A stretch of 64,000 bases of DNA from Terriglobia bacterium (GTDB taxonomy: Bacteria; Acidobacteriota; Terriglobia; JAIQFV01): assembly GCA_028716525.1 (NCBI GenBank), contig JAQUPQ010000001.1, forward strand, positions 1 to 64,000, given 5' to 3'. The translations under genes and the position numbers were made by a program. The first letter of the stretch is position 1, and each line of letters starts with the position of its first letter. Shown here piece after piece: positions 3,570 to 50,682 of the stretch. The notes below the pieces were generated by a model. That model had not been told where the DNA came from, made no database searches, and worked only from the letters and a program-made list of their open reading frames with translations.

Positions 3570-4763
3570 TCACTGTAATTTTCTGAATCTATAAAATTCC
3601 TTGTAATCGGAAAAAACGTGGTGCGCGTATGCAGAAGAGTAATCCAAAAGTTTCCCCTGCCATTCGGACTGATTCGCAAATGCCATGAGCTCGTCGGCAG
3701 TTGAGGAACCTTGTCGGCCGCTGCTGCGCAACTGCCCCCAAGCAGCGAGCTCCCCCATGGTCGCCACCAGTTTCTCAAGCCGCTTCAACTTGCCGTTCCA
3801 ATTTCGGAGATTGACTTTGTCCTGAAGCGGTTGAAGTTCGTGCAGGATGTAGGACCTCCCATGCATTTCGACAGGCGAAAGCAAAGCGGGGCTGGTTCCC
3901 TGAACACGTTGTTGGATGGAAACCACGCGGTCGGCTTCATGACGCCACTTCGGTTGTCGAAGTTTGAGCCGCGACTCGATTGAAGAAGGAGCGGCTTCCT
4001 TCAAATCCAAAAGAAAATTGTGATCCGGTGATCCCTTCCCCCGCACAAGAACCGCAAAGCGATAAAGTCCGAGGCTTCCAGTCCCGGCAATGCGATGCGC
4101 CACGTCAATCACGTTGAAGAAGGCCGGATCCGCTTGTCTCGCCGCCCATTTCTTGATCAACTGCTCGACCCGGGCGCGTTCTTCTCCAGAGACCGCAAAG
4201 AACTTCTTGCCGTCGAGAAAAATCTGACGGTGCTTCCCCTTCAATTTCGTGCGCTTATCCAGAAAGTTCTTTCGTTTCCTCTTTTGAAGAGCATCGAGCA
4301 GTTCTCTGACCATTCCCTCCGCCGTTCCAATTTCGACCGTCCGGGCCTTTCCAAACTGGAGCGCTTTCACGTAGGCCTCAAGCGCCACTTTCTGAAGATC
4401 CCGCCCCTCGGATTCCCTCAACGTCAATGTTTCAGCGGCCACGAGAATGCTCGTCAAAAATCGGGCCAGCTCCCAAGTGCAAGGCGCCAGAACCGCCTCG
4501 TCAAAATCATTGAGGTCGAAATAGACGAGGCGGTTGTCGCCCTTGTAGCTGCCAAAATTCTCCAAGTGCAAATCGCCGCTGATCCAAGCGGCCGGCGCAT
4601 GGTCGAGCGAAGTGCCTTTGGGCCAATCCTCATAAAAAATATGACATGTGCCTCGATAAAATCCGAAGCTACTGGCCCGCATATGTTGATACTTGATCTT
4701 CAGAAGGTCGGGGTCTCTCGTGGCATTGAATTCCTGAATTCTCTCGACGATGTCTTTGCGCAT
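3570..4763 (-). CDS. DUF2252 family protein
   Basis: The start was placed at the ATG at 4763, which opens MRKDIVERIQEFN; the frame stays open upstream but that extension looks non-coding. The protein is 397 residues, close to the family norm of about 400-450. Family hallmarks are visible: a KYxxM...FGFYRGT segment near residues 25-40, GDLHLENFGSY near 66-76 and DLNDFDEA near 86-93. The second resembles the Brenner-type catalytic loop of aminoglycoside phosphotransferase-like kinases, so a phosphotransferase fold is plausible, but the substrate is unknown. No signal peptide was seen, so it is probably cytoplasmic. It stands alone, 302 bases downstream of the M14 peptidase gene on the same strand. 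Confidence 0.85.
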   Translation of the reverse strand: MRKDIVERIQEFNATRDPDLLKIKYQHMRASSFGFYRGTCHIFYEDWPKGTSLDHAPAAWISGDLHLENFGSYKGDNRLVYFDLNDFDEAVLAPCTWELARFLTSILVAAETLTLRESEGRDLQKVALEAYVKALQFGKARTVEIGTAEGMVRELLDALQKRKRKNFLDKRTKLKGKHRQIFLDGKKFFAVSGEERARVEQLIKKWAARQADPAFFNVIDVAHRIAGTGSLGLYRFAVLVRGKGSPDHNFLLDLKEAAPSSIESRLKLRQPKWRHEADRVVSIQQRVQGTSPALLSPVEMHGRSYILHELQPLQDKVNLRNWNGKLKRLEKLVATMGELAAWGQLRSSGRQGSSTADELMAFANQSEWQGKLLDYSSAYAHHVFSDYKEFYRFRKLQ

Positions 4764-27309: not shown

Positions 27310-27336
27310 AAGTGATTCAGATCCTCATCCTCATTT

Positions 27337-33542: not shown

Positions 33543-36500
33543 ATGGCCAAGCAAGCGTCTCGCCAACAATCCGCCACAAACACCGTCGAGGTCCAAGAGG
33601 CTGCGACGGCCAAGAATCCCATGGAGATTCTGGCTCGAGAGCATGCTGAGGCGGGAGTGATTGCCGGCGAAGCCGTTCCCAAGCGTTCCTTCCTGATTCA
33701 TTTCAAAGAGCAAGAAGAGCTTGTGCGTCACGCGACCCATCGCTTCAGCGAAGATTCTGCCCGAGGGCCTCTCTCCTATGCAGCCGAGTGGATGCTGGAC
33801 AATTTTTACCTGGTGCAACAATCGTTCCGCCAAGTCCGTAATGACATGCCGCCCGACTTCTACGGCCAACTGCCCCTGCTCAGATCGAGTTCCCTGAAGG
33901 GACATCCGCGCATCCGGGCTGTGGCGCAGGAATTGGTTGTGATGGACGGCGCGCGTCTCGATATGGACCGTGTCAAGCACCTCATCGATCTCTATCAAGA
34001 CATCACGCCGCTTACTATGGGAGAGCTGTGGGCGCTCCCGGCCATGCTGCGCCTCAGTACCTTGGAATGCCTGGCTCAAACACTCAGCCGTATTACGGGT
34101 CTCCAAAGCGAAAACATATTCCCGGCCGCGACTCTGTTCCAACCGATGAAAGACGATGAAATCGTGGCCAATTGCATTACCAGTCTTCGAAGTCTGGCCA
34201 GTCAGGATTGGCAGTCCTTTTTTGAGAGCGTGAGCCGGGTCGAGCAAACATTGCGTAGCGATCCTGCAAAAGTCTATTCCAAAATGGATCGTGAAACGCG
34301 AGACCGTTATCGCAAAGTGATCGAGGAGTTGGCCCACGCTACCGGGGAAGACGAACAACAAGTGGCGCAGGAAGTTCTTGGGCTGGCCCGGGCAAACCGG
34401 TCAAGCGACAGGCCGCGCGTCACGCACGTCGGATACTTTCTGTTGGATTCAGGGCGGAAGCAACTCGAAGCCCGCCTGGGTTATCGCGCCTCATGGCGGG
34501 CGGGCTTGAACCGCTGCTTATTCGGCCATCCCACTCTGGCCTACCTGGGCAGCATCGGGTTGATCACTTTGATCCTCTTGTTCGAAGGCTTGACCTACGC
34601 AAGAAGTTTTGGCTTCTCTGTCCTGCAATGCCTGGGGGCCGCCATACTCTTGATCATCCCCGGATTGACTGTTTCCGTCAGTCTGGTGAATTGGATTATC
34701 AACCTGCTGGTCCCTCCCAGAGTTTTGCCGAAGATGGATTTTGGAGAAGGTATCCCCGGCGAGTGCAAGACCATGTTGGTTGTCCCGTCACTTTTGACCG
34801 GCGCTGACGAGGTGAAGTCATTGCTTCAGCAGTTGGAGCTGCACTTTTTGCGCAATCCAGATCCAAATATGTTCTTCGCCTTGCTCACCGATCTGCCCGA
34901 CGCTCCGCGGCGACGCCTGCCGGAACGCGACGACTTGATCGATCAAACCGCATCCGGAATTCGGGCCCTCAATGAGAAATATCCTCGGAAAACTCCCAAC
35001 CCCTTCTATCTCTTCCACCGTGATTCCAAATGGAACCCCCGCGAAGAGCGCTGGATGGGTTGGGAGCGCAAGCGGGGTAAGCTGCATCAGTTGAATCTCC
35101 TGTTGCGGGGAAGCGGCAAAGCAGCCTTCAGCGTCCAGGTTGGCGATCTGAATGTCTTGCGTGAGATCAAGTACGTCATCACATTGGATTCGGACACCAT
35201 CATCCCGCGCGAAGCGGCAAGCCGCCTTGTCGCGACCCTCGCCCATCCTCTGAATCACGCTGAGTTTGATCCTCAACGTGGCACGGTCAGCGCCGGCTAT
35301 ACGCTATTGCAACCCGCTATCGAAATCACTTCGACCAGTGCTTACCTCTCACGCTTTACACGCATCTTTGCGGGAGACGTCGGTTTGGATTTGTACACTC
35401 GGGCCGTCTCCGACGTGTATCAGGATTTGTTTGGGCATGGAATTTTCGTGGGCAAGGGAATCTATGATGTGGACGCATTCGAACGCAGCCTGGCAGACCG
35501 TATGCCGGAAAATGCCTTGCTGAGTCACGACCTCATTGAAGGAATACACGGCCGCGTAGGGCTCGTTACCGACATCGTTCTGTTCGAAGACTATCCCCCA
35601 CACTACTTTGTTTATCTTCGTCGGTCGCGGCGTTGGATCCGTGGGGATTGGCAATTATTGCCGTGGCTGTTTCCTAGAGTTCCCTCGGTGGAGAAAGGAA
35701 CCTTACCCAATAGCCTGTCTCTCATTGATCGCTGGAAGATCCTGGATAATCTCCGCCGTAGTCTGCTTTCGCCTGCCTTGTTTGCCTTATTCATCGCTGA
35801 CTGGCTATGGTTGCCGGGCTCGCCGGCGACCTGGACGCTAGCAGGCCTCCTGACACCCGCCATGCCAGTGCTGACCGGCCTATCCAGCGGGTTGTTTCAA
35901 GCTCGGCGAAGAAGGTCCTGGCAGAGTGCATTCCACCCCCTCCGCAACGGTTTAATGCGCTGGATTCTGGCTCTGGCTTTTGTTCCCTATGAGACGCTCA
36001 TAACCCTCACCGGGATCGCCACCACTTTGGTGAGGTTGTTTATCACTCGCAAACACTTGTTGCGATGGACAAGCTACGCGGATACGGTCCGGCTGTTTGC
36101 CGGCGAGATGACTTTTAAACAGATGTTCGCGGCGATTTCCTTGACCGCGGCTCTGGCCTGGCTGACCGCCCGGGCTGATCCGGTTTCGTTGTTCGCTGCC
36201 ACACCTCTGTTGATCGCGTGGGTGCTTTCGCCGGAGATCGCCTACTGGATCAGTCGTCCGCTCCCCCATGCCCCCGCTCCGCTCTCCATGGACGAGCGCC
36301 TGCGACTCCGCCGCTTGGCCCGACGCACTTGGCTCTTTTTCGAAGAGTTTGTTGGTCCTGAAGACCATTGGCTGCCCCCAGACCATTTCCAGGAATCGCC
36401 TCGCAGCAGAGTGACACACAGCACTTCACCCACGGACCTAGGAACGCTGCTGCTCTCCACTTTGGCCGCTTACGACCTGGGATACATTGGCCTGGCGGAT

Positions 36501-39500
36501 CTCAATTCTCGATTGCAGGCGACCTTTGATGGCATGGATAGGTTACAACGATATCAAGGGCACCTTTTGAATTGGTCTGATTCGCGGTCCCTTGAGCCAC
36601 TCGCGCCACGGTACGTTTCTACTGTGGATAGCGGCAACCTGGCGGCCTGCTTGCAAACCTTGAGTCAGGGTCTTCAAGACATTATTCGAAGACCTATCGC
36701 GCGTTGGCAGAGCTGGGAGGGTTTTCTCGATACCCTGGCGCTTCTGGACGAGCTTATGGAGGATTTGGCCGCGACCGGCCTGAAGTCCTCTGTGGCGTCC
36801 TGCCAAACTCGCTTGGCGCAGACGCGGCGACAAGTGCAGGCGGAGCGGGATCATCCTCATGCTTGGAGCTCATTGCTTCACAAGATAACTGAGGAATGCG
36901 GCACTGAGATGTCCCATCTGTTGGCTTCTCTCGTCGCCTCGAAGGCCGAAGTCATGAGCAGTGAGATGTTGCGACGGTTGAACCTCGCGGCCGACCGTGT
37001 GCGCAATCACTTGTACGGTATGGAGCGAGAGATCGGTCAATTGGTTCCCTGGCTGCCCCTGATGAGTCAACCGCCCCGGCTGTTTGCACTTCCTGACACA
37101 CCCCTCACCCTCCTCGGCGCATGGCAGACACTGGTCGCTGCCCTGCCGATCACATCGACGCTCGAGGAACTGGAGACGGTGTGCAGAACGGGTTTGGACC
37201 GCTTGGCTGAACTTCGGAGTCTTTTGTCAGCTCACTTTCCCGACTATTCCACCAGAAACGGAGCGGGGGACGACATTTCCTCTTTTCATGAAAAGCACAT
37301 TGGAGAGTTGCCTCCTTGGCAGGAAGCGGGAGAATGGTGCGAATCTCTGGCAAAACGGCTGGAGGTCACGCTCAACACTGCGGAAACTCTCATGATGGAC
37401 TTTCGAGACGCAGGGCGAAAGACAGAAGAATACTTCCACGCGATGGACTTCAGTTTTCTGTTCGACCCGCAACGGCAACTGTTTCACATTGGGTACAACG
37501 CCGAGACCGAAAGGCTCGATAACAATTATTATGATCTGCTGGCGTCAGAAGCGCAGATCTCGAGCCTCGTCACCATCGCCAAAAACGAGGTTCCCCGAAG
37601 TCACTGGTTGCACCTGGGTCGTCCTCTGACCCAGCTGGACGGTACGCGAGCGCTTCTCTCCTGGGGCGGAACAATGTTCGAGTACCTCATGCCCTTGCTC
37701 TTGGTGCGGAGTTACGAAGGGACATTATTGCAACATACGTGCCTGGCCGCCGTGGATCGCCAGATCGCTTACGGCCGTCAGAAAAAAGTCCCGTGGGGGA
37801 TTTCCGAGTCGGGCTACTTTGCATTTGACGCCGACCAGAACTATCAATATCGCACCTTTGGTGTCCCGGGGTTGGGATTCAAACGCAATCTGGACGAAGA
37901 CTTGGTGGTTGCTCCTTACGCTTCCTTGCTAGCCCTCAGCCTCCGTCCCCAGCAAGTCATGGAGAATCTCGCCCGTCTTGTTCAGTTGCAGATGTTGGGC
38001 ACATATGGATTATATGAGTCGATTGATTTTTCGGCTTCCCGGCTGGCCTTGGGACAGAACCATGCCGTCGTGCGCTCCTACATGTCGCATCATCAAGGAA
38101 TGATTCTTCTCTCTCTGGTCAACTACTTGCACGATAACGTGATGGTGCGACGCTTCCACGCTGATCCCCTGGTGCGAAGTGTGGAACTACTCCTCCAGGA
38201 AAAAGTGCCCTACGAGGCCCCGCTGGAATCTGTGCAACCGGAAGGTGGGCGCGCCACACAACGTGATCCGGCTCAACGTCAGATCATCGCTTCCCCTTGG
38301 AGTGTGCCGGTTCAATCCCCTGCCCCGCAGGTCCATTTCCTTTCTAATGGACGCTACGGCGTGATGATCACCAGCGCCGGCGCCGGCTATAGTTGCTGGC
38401 AAGGCATCGACCTGACGCGTTGGCGTGCCGATACGACGCAAGAGGATTGCGGAACCTGGATCTATCTTCAAGACACTGAGACCGGTGATCTGTGGTCTGC
38501 CGCCTTTCAACCCACGGGCGAACCATCTGAATCCCAGGACACGCAGTTCTATCCTCATATGGCAGAATTTCGCCGCGGCGATCATGGTATAGGTCTGACG
38601 ATGGAAATCACCGTCGCTCCAGAGGAAGACGTCGAGATACGTCGCATCTCCCTCACAAATCGCAGCGATCGTGCGCGGCGAATCGCCTTGACGAGCTATG
38701 ACGAAGTCATTCTGGCGCCTCAAGCGGCTGACTCGCGCCATCCCGCATTAAATAAGATGTTCATTGCCAGCGAGTACCTGCCGGAATCAAATGCCCTGCT
38801 CTTTCATCGCCGAGCGCAATCCACTGAGGAAGAGCCCGTCTATTTGGCTCATTTCGCGATTGTTTCGCCGGGACAAGAAATCACCGCTGCCTATGAAACC
38901 GATCGTGCTCGTTTCTTAGGTCGAGGTCAAACACTTCGCGCCCCGGCCGCCCTAAATTTAACCGACGGAAAATTATTCGGAACGACCGGCGCGACGCTCG
39001 ATCCAATCATGGCTTTAGGCCAGACCGTCGAGTTGCGACCGCATGGATCGGGGCAAGTGAGCTTCGTCACGTTGGTGGCCCGATCACATGCAAAGGCCCT
39101 GAAGCTGGCGCGCCGCTTTCAGGACCCCCGCGTGATCGTGCGCGCCTTCGAACAAGCCCGCTCGCGCGCCGAACTTGAACTGTATCAACTCAACCTGACA
39201 TCGGCCGACTTGGAGCAGATTCAAGAACTTTTGTCCGCCTTGATTTATCCACGCGCGGCACTACGCGCCGAAGCCACAATTCTTGCGGCCAATCGCAAAG
39301 GACAAGCCGATCTGTGGCCCTTCAGCATCTCCGGCGATAATCCCATCCTCCTGGTGCGCCTATACAAATCGGAAGATCTGGCTTTGGTGGAACGGGCCGT
39401 CCAGGCACACACCTACTGGCGCATTCGGCACATCTCTGTTGACTTGGTTCTTCTCAACGAACAAGGAACCAGCTACAGTCAAGAGCTGCGCGGACAGCTG

Positions 39501-42161
39501 CAACGCCTTCTGGTTCACCTGAACAGTGAGGATTGGTTGAATCGGCGCGGAGGGATCTTCATCCTCTACGCGGATCAATTAACGGAGAGCGACCGTGTGC
39601 TGCTCGAAACCTCCGCCCGGGCCGTGTTGGACGCAGCCAAAGGCCCACTAACCCGCCAATTGGAAGCGCTGCGGAAACAACCGCCCCGCCTGCCTCCTTT
39701 TGTCCCGGTCCATCTCGATTCGAAAGCCGAATCGACGCCGCAGTTGGCTCGTCCCCGCGATCTTCTATTTGATAACGGTTTCGGTGGTTTCAGCCCGGAC
39801 GGGCGAGAGTATGTCATTTACCTGCAGCCGCATCAGTGGACACCGGCTCCATGGATTAACGTCGTTGCAAATCCCGACTTCGGTTTTACGGTCTCCGAAG
39901 CCGGCAGTGGCTGCACCTGGCATGGCAACAGCAGTGAGCACCGCCTCACTCCCTGGTTCAACGATCCGGTTTCGGATTTGCCCGGGGAGGCGATTTACTT
40001 GCGCGACGAGGAAACGGCGGAAATTTGGTCGCCGACTCCTCGGCCGTGCCGTACACCAGACCCCTACCTGATTCGCCACGGCGCCGGTTATTCTTTCTTC
40101 GAGCACAACAGTCATGGACTCCTTCATCGTTTGCGTCTCTTTGTCGCACAGGACGCGCCCGTGAAGGTCATGCATCTGCGTTTGGAAAACACCTGGGCCC
40201 ATACCCGCCGGATCACTGCGACGCTCTATCTCGAATGGGTTTTAGGTTCGTCTCGTGAGGCAACCCAGCAGTACCTCGTCTCAGAATTTGACAGCGATCA
40301 CCAAGCGCTCTTGGTGCGAAATACCTATCAGAGAGAATTCCACACGCGCACGGCTTTTGCGGCAGCCAGCAAAAATCTTCACGGCTTGACCGCCGACCGG
40401 ACCGAGTTCTTGGGCCGCATGGGAGATGTGGGCCACCCCGCCGGCTTGGACCGCATTGGACTTTCAAGCGTTGTGGAGCCGGGTCTTGACCCCTGTGGGG
40501 TGCTGCAACTTCACTTGGATTTGAAACCCGGCGAGTCGGAAGAAATATTTTTCCTGATGGGCGAGGGGGAAAACCGGGAAGAGGCGTTGAAATTGATCGA
40601 GCAGTTTCAAAACGGGGACCACGTCGAGCTGGCATGGGATCAAGTTAATCAATTCTGGAATAACCTGTTAGGGCGCGTCCAAGTTCAAACACCCGATGTG
40701 CCCATGAATCTCTTGCTGAACCGCTGGCTGCTTTATCAAACACTCTCGTGTCGACTCTGGGGGCGAACGGCGTTTTACCAATCCAGTGGCGCCTTCGGTT
40801 TTCGCGATCAGTTGCAAGACGTCATGGCGTTGCTACACGCTGCACCCCATCTGGCGCGTGAACATGTTCTGGAATCCGCCCGGCAGCAATTTGAAGCCGG
40901 GGATGTGTTGCACTGGTGGCACCCGCCTTCGGGTCAGGGAGTTCGCACACGATGCTCCGACGACTTGTTATGGCTTCCTTACGTCACTGGCTACTATGTG
41001 GCTGCCACAGGTGACGAATCCATTCTCGACGAAAAGATTCCGTTCCGCCAAGGCTTGCCTCTGGAAACCGGTGAGGTGGAACGTTTCGACCGCTTCCCTC
41101 CTACCGTCGACTTGTACACGCTCTATGAACACTGCTGCCGTTCTATCGAAAAGGGCACAACCGCGGGAGCACACGGACTGCCGCTGATGGGTAACGGAGA
41201 CTGGAATGACGGCATGAACCGGGTGGGAATCCAAGGCCGGGGGGAAAGCGTCTGGTTGGGCTGGTTCCTCTGTGCCACCTTTAATGCCTTTGCCGAACAA
41301 TGCAGCCATCGAGGCGAATTGTCCCAAGCCAGAGCCTTTCGACAACGCGCACTTCAGTTGAGCGCGGCCATTGAAGCGAATGCATGGGACGGACAATGGT
41401 ATCGGCGTGCCTTTTATGATGATGGGACGCCGCTGGGATCCGCCTCGAATGAGGAGTGTCAGATTGACTCGATCGCGCAGTCGTGGGCCGTCTTATCCGC
41501 AATGGGCGACCTGGGCCGTGCTGCGAATGCAATTCAGTCGGCTGCCGAACGGCTTGAGCGCCCCGAACACCAACTCCTGCTGTTGCTGACCCCACCGTTT
41601 GACCAGACGAGCCGCGCTCCGGGTTACATCAAAGCCTACCCACCCGGCATTCGCGAAAACGGAGGGCAATACACCCACGCTGCTCTATGGCTGGTGTGGG
41701 CATTCGCCCAACTGGGGCTTGGCGATCGCGCTGAGTTATTGTTCCATTGGCTCAATCCCATCAACCACAGTGATACTTTTGAAAAAGCATCGAAGTATGG
41801 AGTTGAACCCTATGTCGTTGCCGCGGATGTCTACGGAGTGGCGCCGCATATCGGTCGCGGAGGCTGGACTTGGTACACTGGCGCCAGCAGCTGGATGTAT
41901 CGTGCCGGACTGGAAGCACTGTTAGGAATTCGCCGAAAGGCACAAACTTTGCAATTTAGTCCGTGTATCCCCACAACCTGGCCGGGTTATCAGGTCACAT
42001 ACCGCTTCGGTGAAACGACTTATCAGATCCATGTAGCCAATCCATCGCAGGTCAGCAGCGGCGTGATCAACGTGCTTTTGGATGGGAAAGATGTGGAAGG
42101 AAAACAGATTCCACTGGTAGATGATAGAGGTCAACACGAGGTGCAAGTTTTGATGGGCTGA
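33543..42161 (+). CDS. ndvB: Cyclic beta-1,2-glucan synthase-like protein (GT84-glucoamylase-GH94)
   Basis: A 2872-residue membrane enzyme, matching NdvB/ChvB length. After an N-terminal helical region, membrane segments lie near residues 325-390. A GT84 domain follows (about 400-720) with the DxD-type LDSDTIIP near 547 and RRSRRWIRGDWQLLPWL near 690, then more membrane helices to about 900. A glucoamylase-like domain lies near 1300-1540 (FSFLFDPQRQLFHIGYN, SYMSHHQGMILLSL). Two GH94-associated beta domains begin near 1595 and 2060, and a GH94 phosphorylase domain holds GNGDWNDGMNRVG near 2550. The glucosyltransferase elongates protein-bound beta-1,2-glucan and the phosphorylase domain controls length before cyclisation; product periplasmic glucan aids osmotic adaptation. 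Paired with UspA upstream; terminator at 42233. Confidence 0.93.
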   Translation: MAKQASRQQSATNTVEVQEAATAKNPMEILAREHAEAGVIAGEAVPKRSFLIHFKEQEELVRHATHRFSEDSARGPLSYAAEWMLDNFYLVQQSFRQVRNDMPPDFYGQLPLLRSSSLKGHPRIRAVAQELVVMDGARLDMDRVKHLIDLYQDITPLTMGELWALPAMLRLSTLECLAQTLSRITGLQSENIFPAATLFQPMKDDEIVANCITSLRSLASQDWQSFFESVSRVEQTLRSDPAKVYSKMDRETRDRYRKVIEELAHATGEDEQQVAQEVLGLARANRSSDRPRVTHVGYFLLDSGRKQLEARLGYRASWRAGLNRCLFGHPTLAYLGSIGLITLILLFEGLTYARSFGFSVLQCLGAAILLIIPGLTVSVSLVNWIINLLVPPRVLPKMDFGEGIPGECKTMLVVPSLLTGADEVKSLLQQLELHFLRNPDPNMFFALLTDLPDAPRRRLPERDDLIDQTASGIRALNEKYPRKTPNPFYLFHRDSKWNPREERWMGWERKRGKLHQLNLLLRGSGKAAFSVQVGDLNVLREIKYVITLDSDTIIPREAASRLVATLAHPLNHAEFDPQRGTVSAGYTLLQPAIEITSTSAYLSRFTRIFAGDVGLDLYTRAVSDVYQDLFGHGIFVGKGIYDVDAFERSLADRMPENALLSHDLIEGIHGRVGLVTDIVLFEDYPPHYFVYLRRSRRWIRGDWQLLPWLFPRVPSVEKGTLPNSLSLIDRWKILDNLRRSLLSPALFALFIADWLWLPGSPATWTLAGLLTPAMPVLTGLSSGLFQARRRRSWQSAFHPLRNGLMRWILALAFVPYETLITLTGIATTLVRLFITRKHLLRWTSYADTVRLFAGEMTFKQMFAAISLTAALAWLTARADPVSLFAATPLLIAWVLSPEIAYWISRPLPHAPAPLSMDERLRLRRLARRTWLFFEEFVGPEDHWLPPDHFQESPRSRVTHSTSPTDLGTLLLSTLAAYDLGYIGLADLNSRLQATFDGMDRLQRYQGHLLNWSDSRSLEPLAPRYVSTVDSGNLAACLQTLSQGLQDIIRRPIARWQSWEGFLDTLALLDELMEDLAATGLKSSVASCQTRLAQTRRQVQAERDHPHAWSSLLHKITEECGTEMSHLLASLVASKAEVMSSEMLRRLNLAADRVRNHLYGMEREIGQLVPWLPLMSQPPRLFALPDTPLTLLGAWQTLVAALPITSTLEELETVCRTGLDRLAELRSLLSAHFPDYSTRNGAGDDISSFHEKHIGELPPWQEAGEWCESLAKRLEVTLNTAETLMMDFRDAGRKTEEYFHAMDFSFLFDPQRQLFHIGYNAETERLDNNYYDLLASEAQISSLVTIAKNEVPRSHWLHLGRPLTQLDGTRALLSWGGTMFEYLMPLLLVRSYEGTLLQHTCLAAVDRQIAYGRQKKVPWGISESGYFAFDADQNYQYRTFGVPGLGFKRNLDEDLVVAPYASLLALSLRPQQVMENLARLVQLQMLGTYGLYESIDFSASRLALGQNHAVVRSYMSHHQGMILLSLVNYLHDNVMVRRFHADPLVRSVELLLQEKVPYEAPLESVQPEGGRATQRDPAQRQIIASPWSVPVQSPAPQVHFLSNGRYGVMITSAGAGYSCWQGIDLTRWRADTTQEDCGTWIYLQDTETGDLWSAAFQPTGEPSESQDTQFYPHMAEFRRGDHGIGLTMEITVAPEEDVEIRRISLTNRSDRARRIALTSYDEVILAPQAADSRHPALNKMFIASEYLPESNALLFHRRAQSTEEEPVYLAHFAIVSPGQEITAAYETDRARFLGRGQTLRAPAALNLTDGKLFGTTGATLDPIMALGQTVELRPHGSGQVSFVTLVARSHAKALKLARRFQDPRVIVRAFEQARSRAELELYQLNLTSADLEQIQELLSALIYPRAALRAEATILAANRKGQADLWPFSISGDNPILLVRLYKSEDLALVERAVQAHTYWRIRHISVDLVLLNEQGTSYSQELRGQLQRLLVHLNSEDWLNRRGGIFILYADQLTESDRVLLETSARAVLDAAKGPLTRQLEALRKQPPRLPPFVPVHLDSKAESTPQLARPRDLLFDNGFGGFSPDGREYVIYLQPHQWTPAPWINVVANPDFGFTVSEAGSGCTWHGNSSEHRLTPWFNDPVSDLPGEAIYLRDEETAEIWSPTPRPCRTPDPYLIRHGAGYSFFEHNSHGLLHRLRLFVAQDAPVKVMHLRLENTWAHTRRITATLYLEWVLGSSREATQQYLVSEFDSDHQALLVRNTYQREFHTRTAFAAASKNLHGLTADRTEFLGRMGDVGHPAGLDRIGLSSVVEPGLDPCGVLQLHLDLKPGESEEIFFLMGEGENREEALKLIEQFQNGDHVELAWDQVNQFWNNLLGRVQVQTPDVPMNLLLNRWLLYQTLSCRLWGRTAFYQSSGAFGFRDQLQDVMALLHAAPHLAREHVLESARQQFEAGDVLHWWHPPSGQGVRTRCSDDLLWLPYVTGYYVAATGDESILDEKIPFRQGLPLETGEVERFDRFPPTVDLYTLYEHCCRSIEKGTTAGAHGLPLMGNGDWNDGMNRVGIQGRGESVWLGWFLCATFNAFAEQCSHRGELSQARAFRQRALQLSAAIEANAWDGQWYRRAFYDDGTPLGSASNEECQIDSIAQSWAVLSAMGDLGRAANAIQSAAERLERPEHQLLLLLTPPFDQTSRAPGYIKAYPPGIRENGGQYTHAALWLVWAFAQLGLGDRAELLFHWLNPINHSDTFEKASKYGVEPYVVAADVYGVAPHIGRGGWTWYTGASSWMYRAGLEALLGIRRKAQTLQFSPCIPTTWPGYQVTYRFGETTYQIHVANPSQVSSGVINVLLDGKDVEGKQIPLVDDRGQHEVQVLMG

Positions 42162-42232
42162 TTTTTCACCTCAGTCAGGCATGATCGCCTCGGCGATGAC
42201 CGAGGGTCATGAAAATGGGACGGTTTGGAAAC

Positions 42233-42259
42233 CACCCCGATACATCGGGGTGCGCTTTT
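42233..42259 (+). terminator. Rho-independent terminator after the glucan synthase
   Basis: CACCCCGAT at 42233-42241 pairs with ATCGGGGTG at 42244-42252, followed by CGCTTTT. It lies 72 bases after the stop codon. A near-identical CCCCGAT/ATCGGGG stem recurs near 50810-50825. Confidence 0.65.
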
Positions 42260-42441
42260 ATTCGGAATCAGGAGAAAATCTACGATCCCTCACGGAGAAT
42301 CGCAGTTGGGCGCTGGATAGGAAAAGTAACTTCGTTACCAGCGCTTCAGGCGTTGTCAATACCAGTCTCTGACTGCTGAGCCATCCGCCAGGCGAGGTAT
42401 GGAATTACCGAAGCAGTAGCAAGCATTCTCCATAGAAATGT

Positions 42442-42467
42442 AATCCCCCAGCTCCTGCTGGGGGATT
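42442..42467. repeat. AATC-stem-GATTCAG hairpin
   Basis: AATCCCCCAGC at 42442-42452 pairs perfectly with GCTGGGGGATT at 42457-42467 around loop TCCT, followed by CAGA. It belongs with the hairpins at 46053, 46119 and 46191. Together with the terminator it is the only clear content of the 365-base gap 42162-42526, apart from a dyad GCGCTGG...CCAGCGC near 42310-42345. Confidence 0.65.
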
Positions 42468-42526
42468 CAGAAAGTAAATCAAATTGTACTAAGCAGTTCA
42501 GCGCTCCGAAGAGCAAGAAGAAACCA

Positions 42527-43213
42527 CTATTTCAATTCCACATCTATTAGCCGCACCGTGGTCTTGCCGTCATTGACGGCGGAGTGGGTCCCCGGGCCGG
42601 CAAACACGGCCGTGTCCCTCTTGAATGTCAACTCCTGTTTCTTTCCGTCTGAATTCGTCAGCTCTGCGCTGCCGTTGCTCAATGCAATCGTGATGTGATC
42701 AGGGTGCGTGTGTCGAGCCGTGGTCGAGCCCGCAGGAGTGGCGAATTGAAAGGTGGTCACGTAGGCGTTATCCAAAACCTGCTTAAACGGCGCCGGCAAG
42801 GAAATCTTTGCAGCCTTGGCCGGGTCAGGCGCCGGTTGCTTGAACTCGATCAAGATGGCATGAAAAGGCGTTTTGCCGATGTTTTCAGAGGTGTGAGTCG
42901 TGGCATCCGCGAAGTGGACGGCTCCACGCTTGTCGCCGGCTCCAATTTCGGCGCTCTTTCCATCCGGCGTGTCCTGTCGAATGACGGAAGGCGCCAAAAT
43001 GACGGCCAGGAGCGCGGGATGGGAATGCATGGCCGTTTTCTCCCCCGGCGCCAGTTTGCAATCCAGAATTCGGACGCGGTCATTTTCAGAAATGAGTTTG
43101 TATTCTTTGCCGGCGACTTGAACCGCATCTTGTCCCAGCATTGCGGAAACAAAAGTCAGCATCGTCACCAGGCACAACAGAGACAGCACAATCCGATACT
43201 TTCGGGAATTCAT
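42527..43213 (-). CDS. Exported bicupin protein
   Basis: The start was set at ATG 43213, which has AAAGGAGA upstream and opens a signal peptide (MNSRKYRIVLSLLCLV, cleavage near MLGQ-DA). The 228-residue protein has two cupin folds. The first has KLAPGEKTAMHSHPALLAVIL (metal-type HxH) and the second TARHTHPDHITIALSNGSAEL (HTH/HPD). The second ends with the typical FAGPGTHSAVNDG. Cupins bind a metal in a beta-barrel; the catalytic role is unknown, and no substrate motif stands out. It is divergent from the HExxH gene, with 264 bases between them. Confidence 0.85.
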   Translation of the reverse strand: MNSRKYRIVLSLLCLVTMLTFVSAMLGQDAVQVAGKEYKLISENDRVRILDCKLAPGEKTAMHSHPALLAVILAPSVIRQDTPDGKSAEIGAGDKRGAVHFADATTHTSENIGKTPFHAILIEFKQPAPDPAKAAKISLPAPFKQVLDNAYVTTFQFATPAGSTTARHTHPDHITIALSNGSAELTNSDGKKQELTFKRDTAVFAGPGTHSAVNDGKTTVRLIDVELK

Positions 43214-43477
43214 ACGCTCTCCTTTTGATGTTGGTTGATTGTTCGCGAAGTGTTTTAGAAAGAAGCTTCCCGCGTAAAATGTCGCAACCCGAAGCTCTCC
43301 TTCGGCGGCTTCGCAACTATTGATGTGTTTCGGAAACACCCCAGTATCGGTCCGTATGGAGCAAGCGTCAAGGAGAATGTTTTCACAATTGATTCATCAC
43401 AACCCGGGCGTTTAATTGAGAACAAGACATGCTATGATGACCCTGCCCACCGGCCCCGCTCCTGAAGGAAAACACTC

Positions 43478-44809
43478 ATGACTTCTTCCATTCGACGAGG
43501 TTTGGTTGCATTCACAATCTTGCTGGTGATGGTTTCATCGGGGCACCTGCAGGCTGCCGACTCGCCCATTGATCTTCAACTCGCGGCGCAATACTTCGAT
43601 GAAGCCCACACCCTGTGCACTCAGGACGGTGGCCATCTCTGGGGCATCTCACTTTGTGGACCGATGCTCTTTATCGAGGGGGCCACGCGGTACGTGGTCG
43701 CCAACGAAGCGGGCTCCGAGGGACTTTTGACGCCTCAAGGGAACGTTTTCACAGGAACCTGGCCGCGCCAAATGATGATTGCCAATACCGCGATCGACTG
43801 GTCAGGAAAACGTTGGACCATGGTGTTGTGGCCGTTGCCTCCGAATCGGGCGGTTCGTTATACCATCCTCATGCATGAGTCCTTTCATCGCATCCAGAAA
43901 CAATTGGGTCTGCCGCTGCGCGATCCACTCAATCCTCAAATGGACACCACGGAAGGCCGCATGTGGCTGCGCCTGGAATGGCGCGCTTTGGAAACCGCAC
44001 TACGGTCGACGGGTGAAGCCAAAAAAGATGCGCTCCGCGATGCCCTGCTCTTTCGAGCCTATCGCCGATTCATCTTTCCACCGGCGGCCGCGACCGAGCG
44101 CCCATTGGAAATGAGCGAGGGATTGGCGGAGTACACCGGAGTGGCGCTGAGCGGCCGCTCCAACCTGGCGGACCATGCCGCCGACACACTCAAGAATGCC
44201 GAGCAAGCCGATTCGTTGGCCCGCTCTTTTGCCTATGCCTCCGGCCCTGCATATGGAATCTTATTGGATCAATCCGGTAAATCCTGGCGAAACCATCTTC
44301 GCGCCGACGATGATTTTGGAACGCTGGTGGCCTCGACCTATTCACTGGAACCTCCCGTTGCAGTCAAAGAATCGGCTTTACTTCGGGCCAAGCTGTATGA
44401 CGGGCCGGCCATCCGAGAGGCTGAAAACCATCGCACCGAGGATAAAGAAAAGATCATCATTCAATGGCGACACAAGTTGGTCGAGGGACCGGTTTTGAAG
44501 ATCCCTCTGCAGAACATGAAAATGGAATTCAATCCCAACAAGATTGTGAGCTTAGGCGAACAAGGCACCGTCTACCCCACCATCCGCATTGTGGATCATT
44601 GGGGAATCTTGACTGTTTCTGACGGAGCGTTGATGAGCCCGCAGTTTGGTTCGATTACGGTGTCGGCGCCTTCTGACCCAGTCCGACGTCCCCTTACCGG
44701 CAGCGGCTGGCAATTGGAATTGAACCCCGGCTGGATTGTTGTGGCCGACAAACGCCCCGGAGATTTCACCGTCAAGCCCGTTTCCACAGACTCAACCAAA
44801 CCTCATTAG
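43478..44809 (+). CDS. Putative exported HExxH metallopeptidase, uncharacterised
   Basis: A 443-residue protein with a signal peptide (residues 1-26, LQA-ADS) and AAGGAAAA before the ATG. The motif ILMHESFHRIQ contains HExxH (His133, Glu134, His137), and EMSEGLAEYTG (Glu214, Glu218) follows about 75 residues later, as the third zinc ligand does in gluzincins. The C-terminal third is beta-rich with no known domain visible. I do not recognise a named family. Its neighbours, a bicupin and a DUF4380 protein, give no pathway. Peptidase activity is inferred from the motif only. Confidence 0.75.
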   Translation: MTSSIRRGLVAFTILLVMVSSGHLQAADSPIDLQLAAQYFDEAHTLCTQDGGHLWGISLCGPMLFIEGATRYVVANEAGSEGLLTPQGNVFTGTWPRQMMIANTAIDWSGKRWTMVLWPLPPNRAVRYTILMHESFHRIQKQLGLPLRDPLNPQMDTTEGRMWLRLEWRALETALRSTGEAKKDALRDALLFRAYRRFIFPPAAATERPLEMSEGLAEYTGVALSGRSNLADHAADTLKNAEQADSLARSFAYASGPAYGILLDQSGKSWRNHLRADDDFGTLVASTYSLEPPVAVKESALLRAKLYDGPAIREAENHRTEDKEKIIIQWRHKLVEGPVLKIPLQNMKMEFNPNKIVSLGEQGTVYPTIRIVDHWGILTVSDGALMSPQFGSITVSAPSDPVRRPLTGSGWQLELNPGWIVVADKRPGDFTVKPVSTDSTKPH

Positions 44810-44943
44810 AGAATCATTCCACAGGGTTGGAAGAGGCACTGCCATTCTAGGGTTTCTTTCTTGTCCGCTAAGAAAATAGAAAAGCGCGATCCCGATTGGT
44901 GAGATCGTCGTTACTCCAATTGAGATAGTTTTTTGGGAGGGTT

Positions 44944-45891
44944 ATGAGCACATCCAGCAACGTCAGGATCGAAAAAATCAATTACAAAGGATGGCCCGAC
45001 AGTTATCGCATTTCGAACGGTGTGGTCGAAGCCATCGTTACCGGCGATGTCGGACCGCGCATCATGCATTATGGCTTTGTGAGCGGCCAAAACTTCTTTA
45101 AGGAATTTACTGAACAGTTGGGAAAATCGGGAGAAGCCACGTGGCAAGCTCGGGGCGGCCATCGCCTGTGGATCGGCCCCGAAGATCGCATCAAAAGCTA
45201 TGCCCCCGACAACGATCCCATCCGAATCCTCGTGAAGGATCAAGTGCTGCAAGCAACCCAGCCGGTGGAACCGCTGACCGGTCTTGAAAAACAAATCACA
45301 GTCCGAATGTCGTCCTCAGGGACCGGCGTTGAAGTTCTTCATCAAATCCGGAATGCCGGCCAAGCGCCTTTCAAATTGGCGCCCTGGTGCTTGACCATGT
45401 TTGCCCCCGGCGGCGCGGGGATTCACGGGCTGCCTCCACGCGGGACCTATCCCGATGTCCTGGACGCCTCCGGACCGCTCATGCTATGGAGTTACACCAA
45501 TTTGACCGATCCCCGTTGGCGTTTTCTCCACAGATATCTGGTACTCCACCAAGACCCCAGGAACCCGGTGGCGCAGAAACTCGGCACCTTCAACCGCAAT
45601 GTTTGGGGGGCTTACTGGCTGAACGGAGAATTGTTCGTAAAACGAGCTCACGCGGATGGACCGATCCATTCCTACCCCGACTTCGGCTGCTCCTTTGAAA
45701 CCTTCACCAACGCTGATTTTCTGGAATTGGAAACCCTCGGCCCTTTGATTGAGCTCCAGCCCGGAGCTTCCGTAACCCATTCCGAGTCTTGGGCCGCTCA
45801 CAAAAATATTCATCTTACCGCGTGGAATGACGACGAATTCGATCGCGTGATCGGGCCTTTGGTGAAGCAGCAAACAACCTCTACGAAATGA
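44944..45891 (+). CDS. DUF4380 family protein
   Basis: A 315-residue protein with GGGAGGG directly before the ATG. It begins IEKINYKGWPDSYRISNGVVEAIVTGDVGPRIMHYGFVSG and contains GGHRLWIGPED, ITVRMSSSGTGVEVLHQIRN and a beta-sandwich pattern like galactose mutarotase-superfamily folds. DUF4380 proteins are usually linked to sugar-binding or epimerase-type folds, but the activity is not known. No signal peptide was seen. It sits between the HExxH protein and the GT39-like gene and may be part of an envelope carbohydrate theme. Confidence 0.8.
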   Translation: MSTSSNVRIEKINYKGWPDSYRISNGVVEAIVTGDVGPRIMHYGFVSGQNFFKEFTEQLGKSGEATWQARGGHRLWIGPEDRIKSYAPDNDPIRILVKDQVLQATQPVEPLTGLEKQITVRMSSSGTGVEVLHQIRNAGQAPFKLAPWCLTMFAPGGAGIHGLPPRGTYPDVLDASGPLMLWSYTNLTDPRWRFLHRYLVLHQDPRNPVAQKLGTFNRNVWGAYWLNGELFVKRAHADGPIHSYPDFGCSFETFTNADFLELETLGPLIELQPGASVTHSESWAAHKNIHLTAWNDDEFDRVIGPLVKQQTTSTK

Positions 45892-46052
45892 TTGGCGGCA
45901 CCCACAGAAGCGCTGTTTATGAGGTCTTTGACGTTAAGTGCCGTGCCTGCTGCGTTACAAGTGTAAGATGTTTTTCAAACCTCTTGATTGGCTTGTGTCG
46001 CCACGCATCTGAGGCACCGCTGAAAAACCGATCAACGAGATAATCCCGCCGA

Positions 46053-46067
46053 TCCGCCTTCGGCGGA
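46053..46067. repeat. Hairpin followed by AGATTCAAAT
   Basis: TCCGCC at 46053-46058 pairs with GGCGGA at 46062-46067 around TTC, then AGATTCAAAT follows at 46073. It is the first of three hairpins in the 354-base gap between the DUF4380 and GT39-like genes; nothing else is recognisable there. Confidence 0.5.
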
Positions 46068-46118
46068 GTGGTAGATTCAAATACAACCTACTACCGATTC
46101 GCCCCAACCATTGGAATC

Positions 46119-46138
46119 CCGCCAGCGGATGCTGGCGG
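46119..46138. repeat. Hairpin followed by GATTCAGATTCAA
   Basis: CCGCCAGC at 46119-46126 pairs perfectly with GCTGGCGG at 46131-46138 around the 4-base loop GGAT, then GATTCAGATTCAA at 46141. It has the same geometry as the hairpins at 42442 and 46191. Confidence 0.6.
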
Positions 46139-46190
46139 ATGATTCAGATTCAACCTTTTACCTCACGAGGATAGGATGTGCGTGAAATAT

Positions 46191-46210
46191 CCACCGACTC
46201 CGGTCGGTGG
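46191..46210. repeat. Hairpin followed by GATTCAGAT
   Basis: CCACCGAC at 46191-46198 pairs perfectly with GTCGGTGG at 46203-46210 around the 4-base loop TCCG, then GATTCAGAT. The stem sequence differs from its relatives while the 8-base stem, 4-base loop and flank are kept. Confidence 0.6.
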
Positions 46211-46245
46211 GATTCAGATCCACACCGGGCTCTTCCATCACCCGG

Positions 46246-47661
46246 CTATGCCTTCTGCAGCAATTCTCGCGGCCCTTTTGCCGCCAAGAAGCACGCAAAA
46301 AGTACCATCGGCCAGAGCTGCACATACAACCGCTCCAAGGAAGCCTCCAGGTTCCACGCCAGATCGTGTGGCGTAATGATGTAAATAAAAAAATATCCCA
46401 ACAGCATTAGAAAATAAGTCAGCCAAGCCGTCAGTGTCCCCGCGCGTAAAGACTTAGGAATGCGAGTTCGAACCAAAATCAAGTAAATGGCAAGCAATGG
46501 AAGACTGACAAATCCTCTGGAAAATCTCACCGTCTCCAAAAGAAATTCCTTCAAAATCAGCGCGTAACGAGTAATGTCGGAAGCTCGGGCTGTCAGCATG
46601 TGCAATTGCAACGGTCCGATCAAGTCGTTGGCGGGCGCCCACCGGGTCCGAAAGTAGAAAACCAGTAAAAGACACGGAGACATTCCTATCAACAAGAATC
46701 CAATCTCACGGATCGTCGGCCACCAACCGGAATAAATCTTCTTGGAAATGAACCGGGCAATCAAAATGGCCAAGGCGAAAAGCAGCCCCTCGTTTTTTGT
46801 CCAGGCAGCGCATCCGACAAACAGACCTGTCAAAATGAGCAGACCCCTTGGGGGTTTCGCCGATTGATCATAAAGGCAAATCAAAACAAGTGGGACCAGG
46901 AGAAAGTAGCTCAGCGGCAAATCCGCCATCTGGGAACCCCCAATCCTCACAAACAGCGGCGTGCCCAGCAGGAGCATTCCCGCCAGATAACCCTCCTCAC
47001 GGCCTTTCAGTAATGCAAGACCGCTGACCAACAGCCCCACCGTTGAAAGCAGAAAGAGGCATGCAATCAATGCCGAAACCAAAGATGGATCTCTTCCCAG
47101 ATAAGTCCAAACCCTGGCCACGGTGGCGGGCAACAGGAGCGGGTAATCGGGATGCGTCCAAGACAAGTCGCGCGTTAAGTAGGCCGCCCAGTTCGCCCCT
47201 CCGCGAAAGAGAAATCGAGCGTGTAGATTCCATATGGGGACGGCATCGGCCTCACCCTGGGGGTGGCGCAGCGTGGCGCTGACGAGATAGACAATTGTCC
47301 CCGTGAGCATCAGAAAGAAAACTGCTGAAAGTATTCTTCGAAGCCCGGAGGGAGCATCATTAATGCCGTTCTCAAGGGCAGGTTCCGTCGCAGAGAGTTT
47401 TGACCTGCGTATCTTTAGGATCGCTGCGGCCACCACACAAGCGGCCACGGCCCAATCCATCAGGACTAAAACGCGCGGCGAAAGAGAAAACAATCGCCAA
47501 AGAAAGTAAACAACTGACGTAATTCCAAAACCGCTTCCCACCGTCATCAACAGGAGAAGGACCCACGGCATCAGTTGCTTCCGCGGGAATTCCGTCAACA
47601 ACAAAACCAATCCCAACCCGCCTAGGAATGCCGGAAGAAGGGCTGCAGTTATCGCCAACAT
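46246..47661 (-). CDS. GT39-like integral membrane glycosyltransferase
   Basis: A 471-residue protein with about 11 hydrophobic helices. A first periplasmic loop (residues 125-170) contains GEADAVPIWNLHARFLFRGG and SWTHPDYPLLLPATVARVW. Acidic residues in that loop serve as the catalytic site in dolichyl/undecaprenyl-phosphate-sugar transferases such as PMT, ArnT and related GT39 members. It should transfer a sugar from a lipid carrier to an envelope acceptor. The upstream membrane-anchored gene overlaps its start by 13 bases, which suggests coupled translation. The acceptor cannot be inferred. Confidence 0.8.
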   Translation of the reverse strand: MLAITAALLPAFLGGLGLVLLLTEFPRKQLMPWVLLLLMTVGSGFGITSVVYFLWRLFSLSPRVLVLMDWAVAACVVAAAILKIRRSKLSATEPALENGINDAPSGLRRILSAVFFLMLTGTIVYLVSATLRHPQGEADAVPIWNLHARFLFRGGANWAAYLTRDLSWTHPDYPLLLPATVARVWTYLGRDPSLVSALIACLFLLSTVGLLVSGLALLKGREEGYLAGMLLLGTPLFVRIGGSQMADLPLSYFLLVPLVLICLYDQSAKPPRGLLILTGLFVGCAAWTKNEGLLFALAILIARFISKKIYSGWWPTIREIGFLLIGMSPCLLLVFYFRTRWAPANDLIGPLQLHMLTARASDITRYALILKEFLLETVRFSRGFVSLPLLAIYLILVRTRIPKSLRAGTLTAWLTYFLMLLGYFFIYIITPHDLAWNLEASLERLYVQLWPMVLFACFLAAKGPRELLQKA

Positions 47662-50651: not shown

Positions 50652-50682
50652 CCACGATCAACCGTCTTTTGGTTGATCGTGG
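50652..50682. repeat. Perfect 12-bp-stem hairpin
   Basis: CCACGATCAACC at 50652-50663 and GGTTGATCGTGG at 50671-50682 are exact reverse complements around GTCTTTT. It lies between the TAAAGAAC hairpin and the 144-base inverted-repeat element. Confidence 0.6.

Follow-up and report, generated by a model that had tools for sequence, protein, structure and literature searches.

Hairpins between convergent genes

The first 64,000 nucleotides of contig JAQUPQ010000001.1 (assembly GCA_028716525.1, from a Terriglobia bacterium of the Acidobacteriota), referred to here as the window, contain four short hairpins in two gaps between convergent open reading frames (ORFs). A sequence-only reading of this DNA had grouped the hairpins as a family, and all four are present, as listed below with bit scores from a covariance model of the family. 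Quite probably, they are remnants of repeats of the REP (repetitive extragenic palindrome) type, which are dispersed in certain soil Acidobacteriota; their cognate enzyme would be a fused, two-domain Y1/HUH transposase encoded by relatives of this organism.

42162-42526: gap holding s1, between convergent ORFs 33543-42161 (plus) and 42527-43339 (minus)
42441-42467, minus strand: s1, solitary truncated relic with stem and loop and no tail; perfect 11-bp stem at 42442-42467
45892-46245: gap holding the ++- cluster of s2, s3 and s4, between convergent ORFs 44944-45891 (plus) and 46246-47661 (minus)
46042-46097, plus strand: s2, degraded element, hairpin at 46046-46066 enlarged and distorted, tail GATTCAAATACAACCTAC intact; 27.5 bits
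46115-46164, plus strand: s3, AATC, 8-bp stem (hairpin at 46119-46138), GGAT loop, tail ATGATTCAGATTCAACCT; 55.3 bits
46165-46214, minus strand: s4, hairpin at 46191-46210, convergent with s2 and s3

The geometry first proposed, an 8-bp stem closed by a 4-base loop, is indeed typical of the family, but it does not hold for every site, since s2 is distorted and s1 has the longer stem. The hallmark had been taken to be a GATTCAGAT tail, yet s1 and s4 belong to the minus strand, and the first bases of their apparent tail are complementary to the AATCC found ahead of the stem; the true tail, GATTCARAT, is read on the plus strand in s2 and s3, and the tail of the family is ATGRTTCARWTNCARCCTAC. The minus-strand score of s4 is about 37.3 bits, versus 12.1 on the plus strand, and that of s1 (42464-42441, model positions 5-28) is 20.0 bits, versus 10.7. 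The 9-mer GATTCAGAT itself occurs five times in the window, where 0.76 would be expected, and exact GGATTCAGA occurs 44 times in the whole genome against four for the reversed pattern, but it follows a stem, as judged by eye, only at s1 and s4. Most GGATTCAGA occurrences are therefore unrelated to hairpins and the 9-mer is not the signal; being so common without a stem, the bare GATTCAGAT at 27314, which had been noted as lacking a stem, is probably background.

Could the four sites then be chance hairpins beside a common 9-mer? The abundance of GGATTCAGA away from hairpins speaks for this, and so do relaxed scans, which look like background: a relaxed hairpin-plus-tail scan of contig C1, tried as a definition of the family, gave about as many matches as its Markov controls (57-77 per replicate), which means that a tail plus a stem does not define the family and that the covariance model does. 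With that model, built from copies outside the window, s3, the best kept of the window elements, is found at an expectation value (E) of 1.5e-13 and s4 at 1.1e-7 in searches of the whole genome. Chance is thereby refuted for s2, s3 and s4, and as an account of the four sites together it is hardly credible; s1 alone is doubtful, as a weak and partial member (E 0.05). The ORF directly upstream of s1 (33543-42161) is a single frame of 2872 amino acids.

A dispersed repeat with a constrained stem

The genome searched comprises 4.2 Mb in 104 contigs, and BLAST with 46010-46245 finds further copies on contigs C16, C6, C73, C36 and C8. Since MAFFT misplaced the stems in the first small alignments, which were discarded as a basis, the covariance model was built from BLAST-found copies, 14 in number and all outside the window. 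The element is about 50 bp long and consists of a hairpin and a conserved 3' tail; its consensus reads 5' AATC, an 8-bp stem CC.CC..C, a loop that is usually GGAA, and the tail. As had been noticed from the letters alone, the stems differ while pairing is kept: across the 14 copies, 96.4% of the cells are paired and four of the eight pairs show two-sided changes, 18 such changes in total against a shuffle mean of 6.2, a number that none of 500 shuffles reached. The covariation score (0.433) likewise lies above all 500 shuffles and above slid control versions (0.000-0.065). RNAalifold predicts the same eight pairs and leaves the tail without any structure; another small hairpin within the tail, weighed by eye in the family alignment, was rejected because compensating changes are missing. 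The stem is thus structurally constrained, as the sequence-only reading had it, but the accompanying contrast with a copied sequence falls away, because these repeats are also copied and dispersed, and their flanks and loop are conserved. No Rfam family matches the window between 42000 and 46700 at E<=1, nor any of five element loci above the gathering score.

In the family alignment, the 5' stem foot bears neither GTAG nor GGAG, nor the CnGA of the class 3 enzymes discussed below; CTAC/GTAG sits some 17-20 nt 3' of the stem, and CTGA/TTGA, which might serve as a foot, about 4-5 nt from the stem on the other strand. A different palindromic repeat, starting (TTTG)GTAGCCACGATC, is found at 50652-50682 of the window and at loci L038, L046 and L047, and it is closer to a classical REP because its GTAG lies directly at the stem foot.

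Searching the genome and its relatives with the model yields a large excess of matches. The genome of origin has 34 places at E<=10, and 26 at E<=1e-3 in 12 clusters (14 of these 26 being the training copies); two genomes of the same family have 57 copies at E<=1e-3 and 65 at E<=1 (G001), and at least 150 copies (G002, with 151 at E<=1, where no more than 150 candidates were scored). These three are the only carriers among the 61 genomes of the class that were searched (its own and 60 relatives), the other 58 having no element. In a sample of 396 genomes of the phylum, in which 15 candidates were scored for each and copy counts are thus lower bounds, the element appears in five (its own, G128, G129, G310 and G389).

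The copies are arranged with marked regularity. Considering neighbours at most 350 bp apart in the three genomes of the family (150, 57 and 26 copies in G002, G001 and its own, respectively), 59 neighbouring pairs are convergent (44, 10 and 5) and four divergent (3, 1 and 0), while same-strand neighbours are spaced by 64-77 bp in 58 of 62 cases, the remaining four lying at 102, 130, 137 and 255 bp. The ++- arrangement of s2, s3 and s4 recurs in other clusters of the genome, and arrays of the types ++-, ++-- and +++-- are found both there and around the fused gene introduced in the next section. In G002, element pairs also lie at 21 loci (L109, L111 and L113 among them) inside a composite repeat of about 290 bp bounded by outer inverted repeats of about 30 bp, GCGCATACGCGTCAACCTAAG and its reverse; the outer ends of this composite are variable, as if it were nested in another repeat.

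Placement relative to genes, another point that the sequence-only reading had raised, is biased toward intergenic DNA, since no ORF of 110 amino acids or more overlaps the element at 11 of 14 places in the genome of origin. The position of the two window gaps between convergent ORFs, and a pattern scan that marks 42467-42442 (minus strand) as terminator-like, would suit hairpins selected at gene ends as transcription terminators or stabilisers of mRNA 3' ends. Ordinary terminators do not, however, account for the excess of stems: terminator-like sites are no more frequent than in shuffles (13 between 40000 and 50000, with 12.1 expected), the conserved tail is not T-rich and has no T run, and the elements occur in few genomes, in regular arrays of about 67 bp and convergent pairs, tied to one transposase gene. 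Selection as terminators or stabilisers is accordingly improbable as the origin of the family, although the hairpins may have an additional, secondary role in RNA.

Association with a fused transposase gene

Matches to Y1_Tnp (PF01797) number 10 in the genome of origin, 19 in G001 and 36 in G002, and some of those in G001 and G002 are the two domains of one 273-aa ORF that lies amid elements. This fused protein has two PF01797 stretches (107 bits) and is named an IS200/IS605 family transposase by NCBIfam, scoring 121 bits with the IS200 model and 35 bits with REP_Tyr_transpos, below the cut-off of 80. A scan of GTDB contigs with the fused proteins found four loci: the two genes of G002 (Terriglobia bacterium SRVP_39, JAIQFY010000019.1), one in Acidobacteria gp4 AA21 (L201; 55% identity, frame broken) and one in Blastocatellia (L202; 40% identity), whose protein is also that of G426. 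The scan of the phylum added genes in G389, G310 (two), G129 (a fragment) and G224 (two, distant). Two of the fused genes, that at L201 (320-1134) and one of those in G310 (L230/L228), have a -1 shift that interrupts the frame in the N domain ahead of the Tyr helix; the shifts lie at different places and no obvious slippery site was seen on reading, so that decay, sequencing error or frameshifting may be behind them.

Of 11 loci with the fused gene or fragments of it, 8 have elements (G001, both of G002, gp4, G389, both of G310 and G129); around other Y1_Tnp genes, one locus out of 41 has an element (L151). Seven of the fused-gene loci have elements on either side, and there the closest one upstream is on the plus strand and the closest one downstream on the minus strand relative to the gene, so that the tails face the gene, and at both G002 loci (L199 and L200) the stop codon of the transposase (TAG, position 3820) lies inside the downstream element. 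Among the 396 genomes, five have elements, five have the fused gene (E<=1e-15) and three have both (G129, G310 and G389); such co-occurrence would arise by chance with a hypergeometric probability of about 1e-5, a figure that overstates the significance, since G310 and G389 belong to one family.

An alternative is that the elements were moved by the single-domain Y1_Tnp genes of the genome itself. There are ten of them, several with 8-bp/4-nt hairpins of their own nearby, but none of the ten loci carries a match to the model and the hairpins beside these genes differ in sequence, which leaves this origin with little probability. Four of these genes (L048, L051, L052 and L053) are flanked by such hairpins with different stems; the genome thus hosts several REP systems side by side.

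One catalytic set divided between two domains

Ten fused proteins were surveyed for catalytic residues; for two of them, whose gene is broken, two frames were read. In the N domain, the second His of the HUH motif is lost in all ten (Arg in seven, Gln in two, Leu in one), and the Tyr and the Gln four residues later are kept in all ten. The C domain keeps HxH in all ten and has lost the Gln in all ten; its nucleophile position is occupied by Phe (six), Val (two), Trp (one) or Tyr (one, L202), the Tyr thus being lost in nine. Rather than sharing a single core domain of about 113 aa, HUH and Tyr are therefore split over two domains in nine of the ten. In a comparison set of 25 single-domain Y1 proteins, taken from genomes of the same family, HxH is kept in 25 of 25, Tyr in 23 of the 24 that are readable at that position and Gln/Asn in 24 of 24. 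The same split is seen in two very divergent two-domain proteins of G224 (L227 and L229), which have no elements of the family nearby.

Both halves are under purifying selection, as indicated by low dN/dS in three pairwise comparisons (0.20-0.29 in the N half and 0.12-0.16 in the C half). The N domains form one clade and the C domains another, with support of 100/99 each in a tree whose root is arbitrary, and hence a single origin of the fusion is possible within this sample; it may have come about by a duplication or by the joining of two different genes, the arbitrary root fitting both. A sequence profile of the C domain matches the TnpA structures 2xm3 and 2xma (E about 7e-14), placing the C-domain Phe opposite the catalytic Tyr of ISDra2, and Foldseek, for which an AlphaFold2 model was used with regard to the C-domain fold only, matched ISDra2 and IS608 TnpA (E 4e-8 and weaker) and the E. 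coli RAYT 4er8 (E 1.2e-3).

How would such a protein work? According to PMC6006769, the histidines and the residue about four positions after the Tyr hold the metal, and in IS608 TnpA (PMC5934647) one chain contributes the Tyr helix, which is swapped and also carries Gln131, while the other contributes the HUH (His64/66). Because the losses are complementary, the fused protein holds one complete catalytic set, divided exactly as between the IS608 chains, which predicts one active site assembled in trans within one chain: the N domain would supply the nucleophilic Tyr and the metal-ligand Gln, and the C domain the HUH histidines, giving one trans site per polypeptide. With somewhat more confidence than doubt, we take the fused transposase to be a single-chain pseudo-dimer with one trans active site, serving a distinct REP family across several Acidobacteriota lineages.

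Weighing the proposed origin

From this association and these residues we infer binding, cleavage, mobility and trans assembly. The repeat, non-autonomous and of about 50 bp, would have spread between genes and come to be grouped head-to-tail and convergently; the fused gene with its bracketing elements, tails toward the gene, as seen in relatives, would constitute a REPtron. The hairpin would be recognised on single-stranded DNA, and the enzyme would cut and rejoin DNA at the element, which could thereby be copied, paired and shuffled. The copies in the window are best read as orphaned and partly decayed.

Several observations weigh against this account. The genome of origin has no detectable fused gene, its matches being single-domain genes at E 1.6e-5 or weaker, which means that the cause in this organism is deduced from relatives, and G128 has elements with no fused gene detected; loss or an assembly gap may explain both cases, as both assemblies are fragmented. 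Conversely, the fused genes of G426/L202 (Blastocatellia) and the two of G224 have no elements matching the model nearby, and the C domain of L202 keeps HUH and Tyr, without the Gln. The AlphaFold2 model, from an alignment of five rows, is poor (mean pLDDT, predicted local distance difference test, 62.9; pTM, predicted template modelling score, 0.52). Finally, many of the G002 pairs lie within the larger repeat with outer inverted repeats, so another enzyme may have carried them. Taken further, the mobile unit would be a larger repeat resembling a miniature inverted-repeat transposable element, with terminal inverted repeats and an unrelated transposase, the hairpins being passengers. The composite with inverted outer ends around an element pair fits this, but the multi-element arrays of the genome of origin and those around the fused gene are not single pairs of about 125 bp, and we regard passenger status as rather unlikely. 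A REP-type repeat served by the fused transposase is preferred, and it supplies an explanation for a family without a match in Rfam scans.

Comparison with known systems

The closest parallel is that of REP/REPIN sequences (BIMEs) and their RAYT (TnpAREP) enzymes, organised in REPtrons, with which, as far as the excerpts of PMC6006769 and PMC3733652 describe them, the present family shares short extragenic palindromes in many copies, their arrangement in convergent pairs and arrays, and their place around a Y1/HUH gene. It differs from those descriptions in that GTAG is displaced from the stem foot and in that the enzyme is a two-domain fusion with complementary catalytic loss. The TnpAY1 class 3 of Quentin et al. 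2018 (PMC6006769, in the portions available) shares the phylum, the Tyr followed by Gln, atypical flanking hairpins and high copy number; it is found in Planctomycetes, Acidobacteria and Proteobacteria, and its hairpins reach about 600 copies in Solibacter usitatus. Class 3 proteins have, however, about 178 aa, as opposed to the 273 aa and two Y1 domains of the fused protein, and the same portions state that unexpectedly long proteins were excluded as fusions or annotation errors. No description of a two-domain RAYT with split motifs was found among the titles and abstract openings listed in searches of an open-licence PMC library.

With IS200/IS605 TnpA (IS608, ISDra2), the fused protein shares the fold and the C-domain sequence, and the change of the C-domain Tyr to Phe is the same as in the ISDra2 Y132F mutant structure 2xo6, Val or Trp being found in others. 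In the excerpts available, E. coli TnpAREP appears monomeric (PMC6006769) and IS608 TnpA is a dimer with trans sites (PMC5934647); the latter homodimer serves, by analogy, as the model for the site proposed here, with the difference that IS608 has two identical sites made from two chains, whereas in the fused protein a single chain is predicted to form one. The way in which RAYTs copy REPs is a standing question, and an enzyme that unites both halves in one chain with only one complete catalytic set allows asking whether REPs can be processed by one trans site alone and which of the two domains recognises the hairpin. If the proposal is true, one site per polypeptide does the work of the two in IS608-type enzymes.

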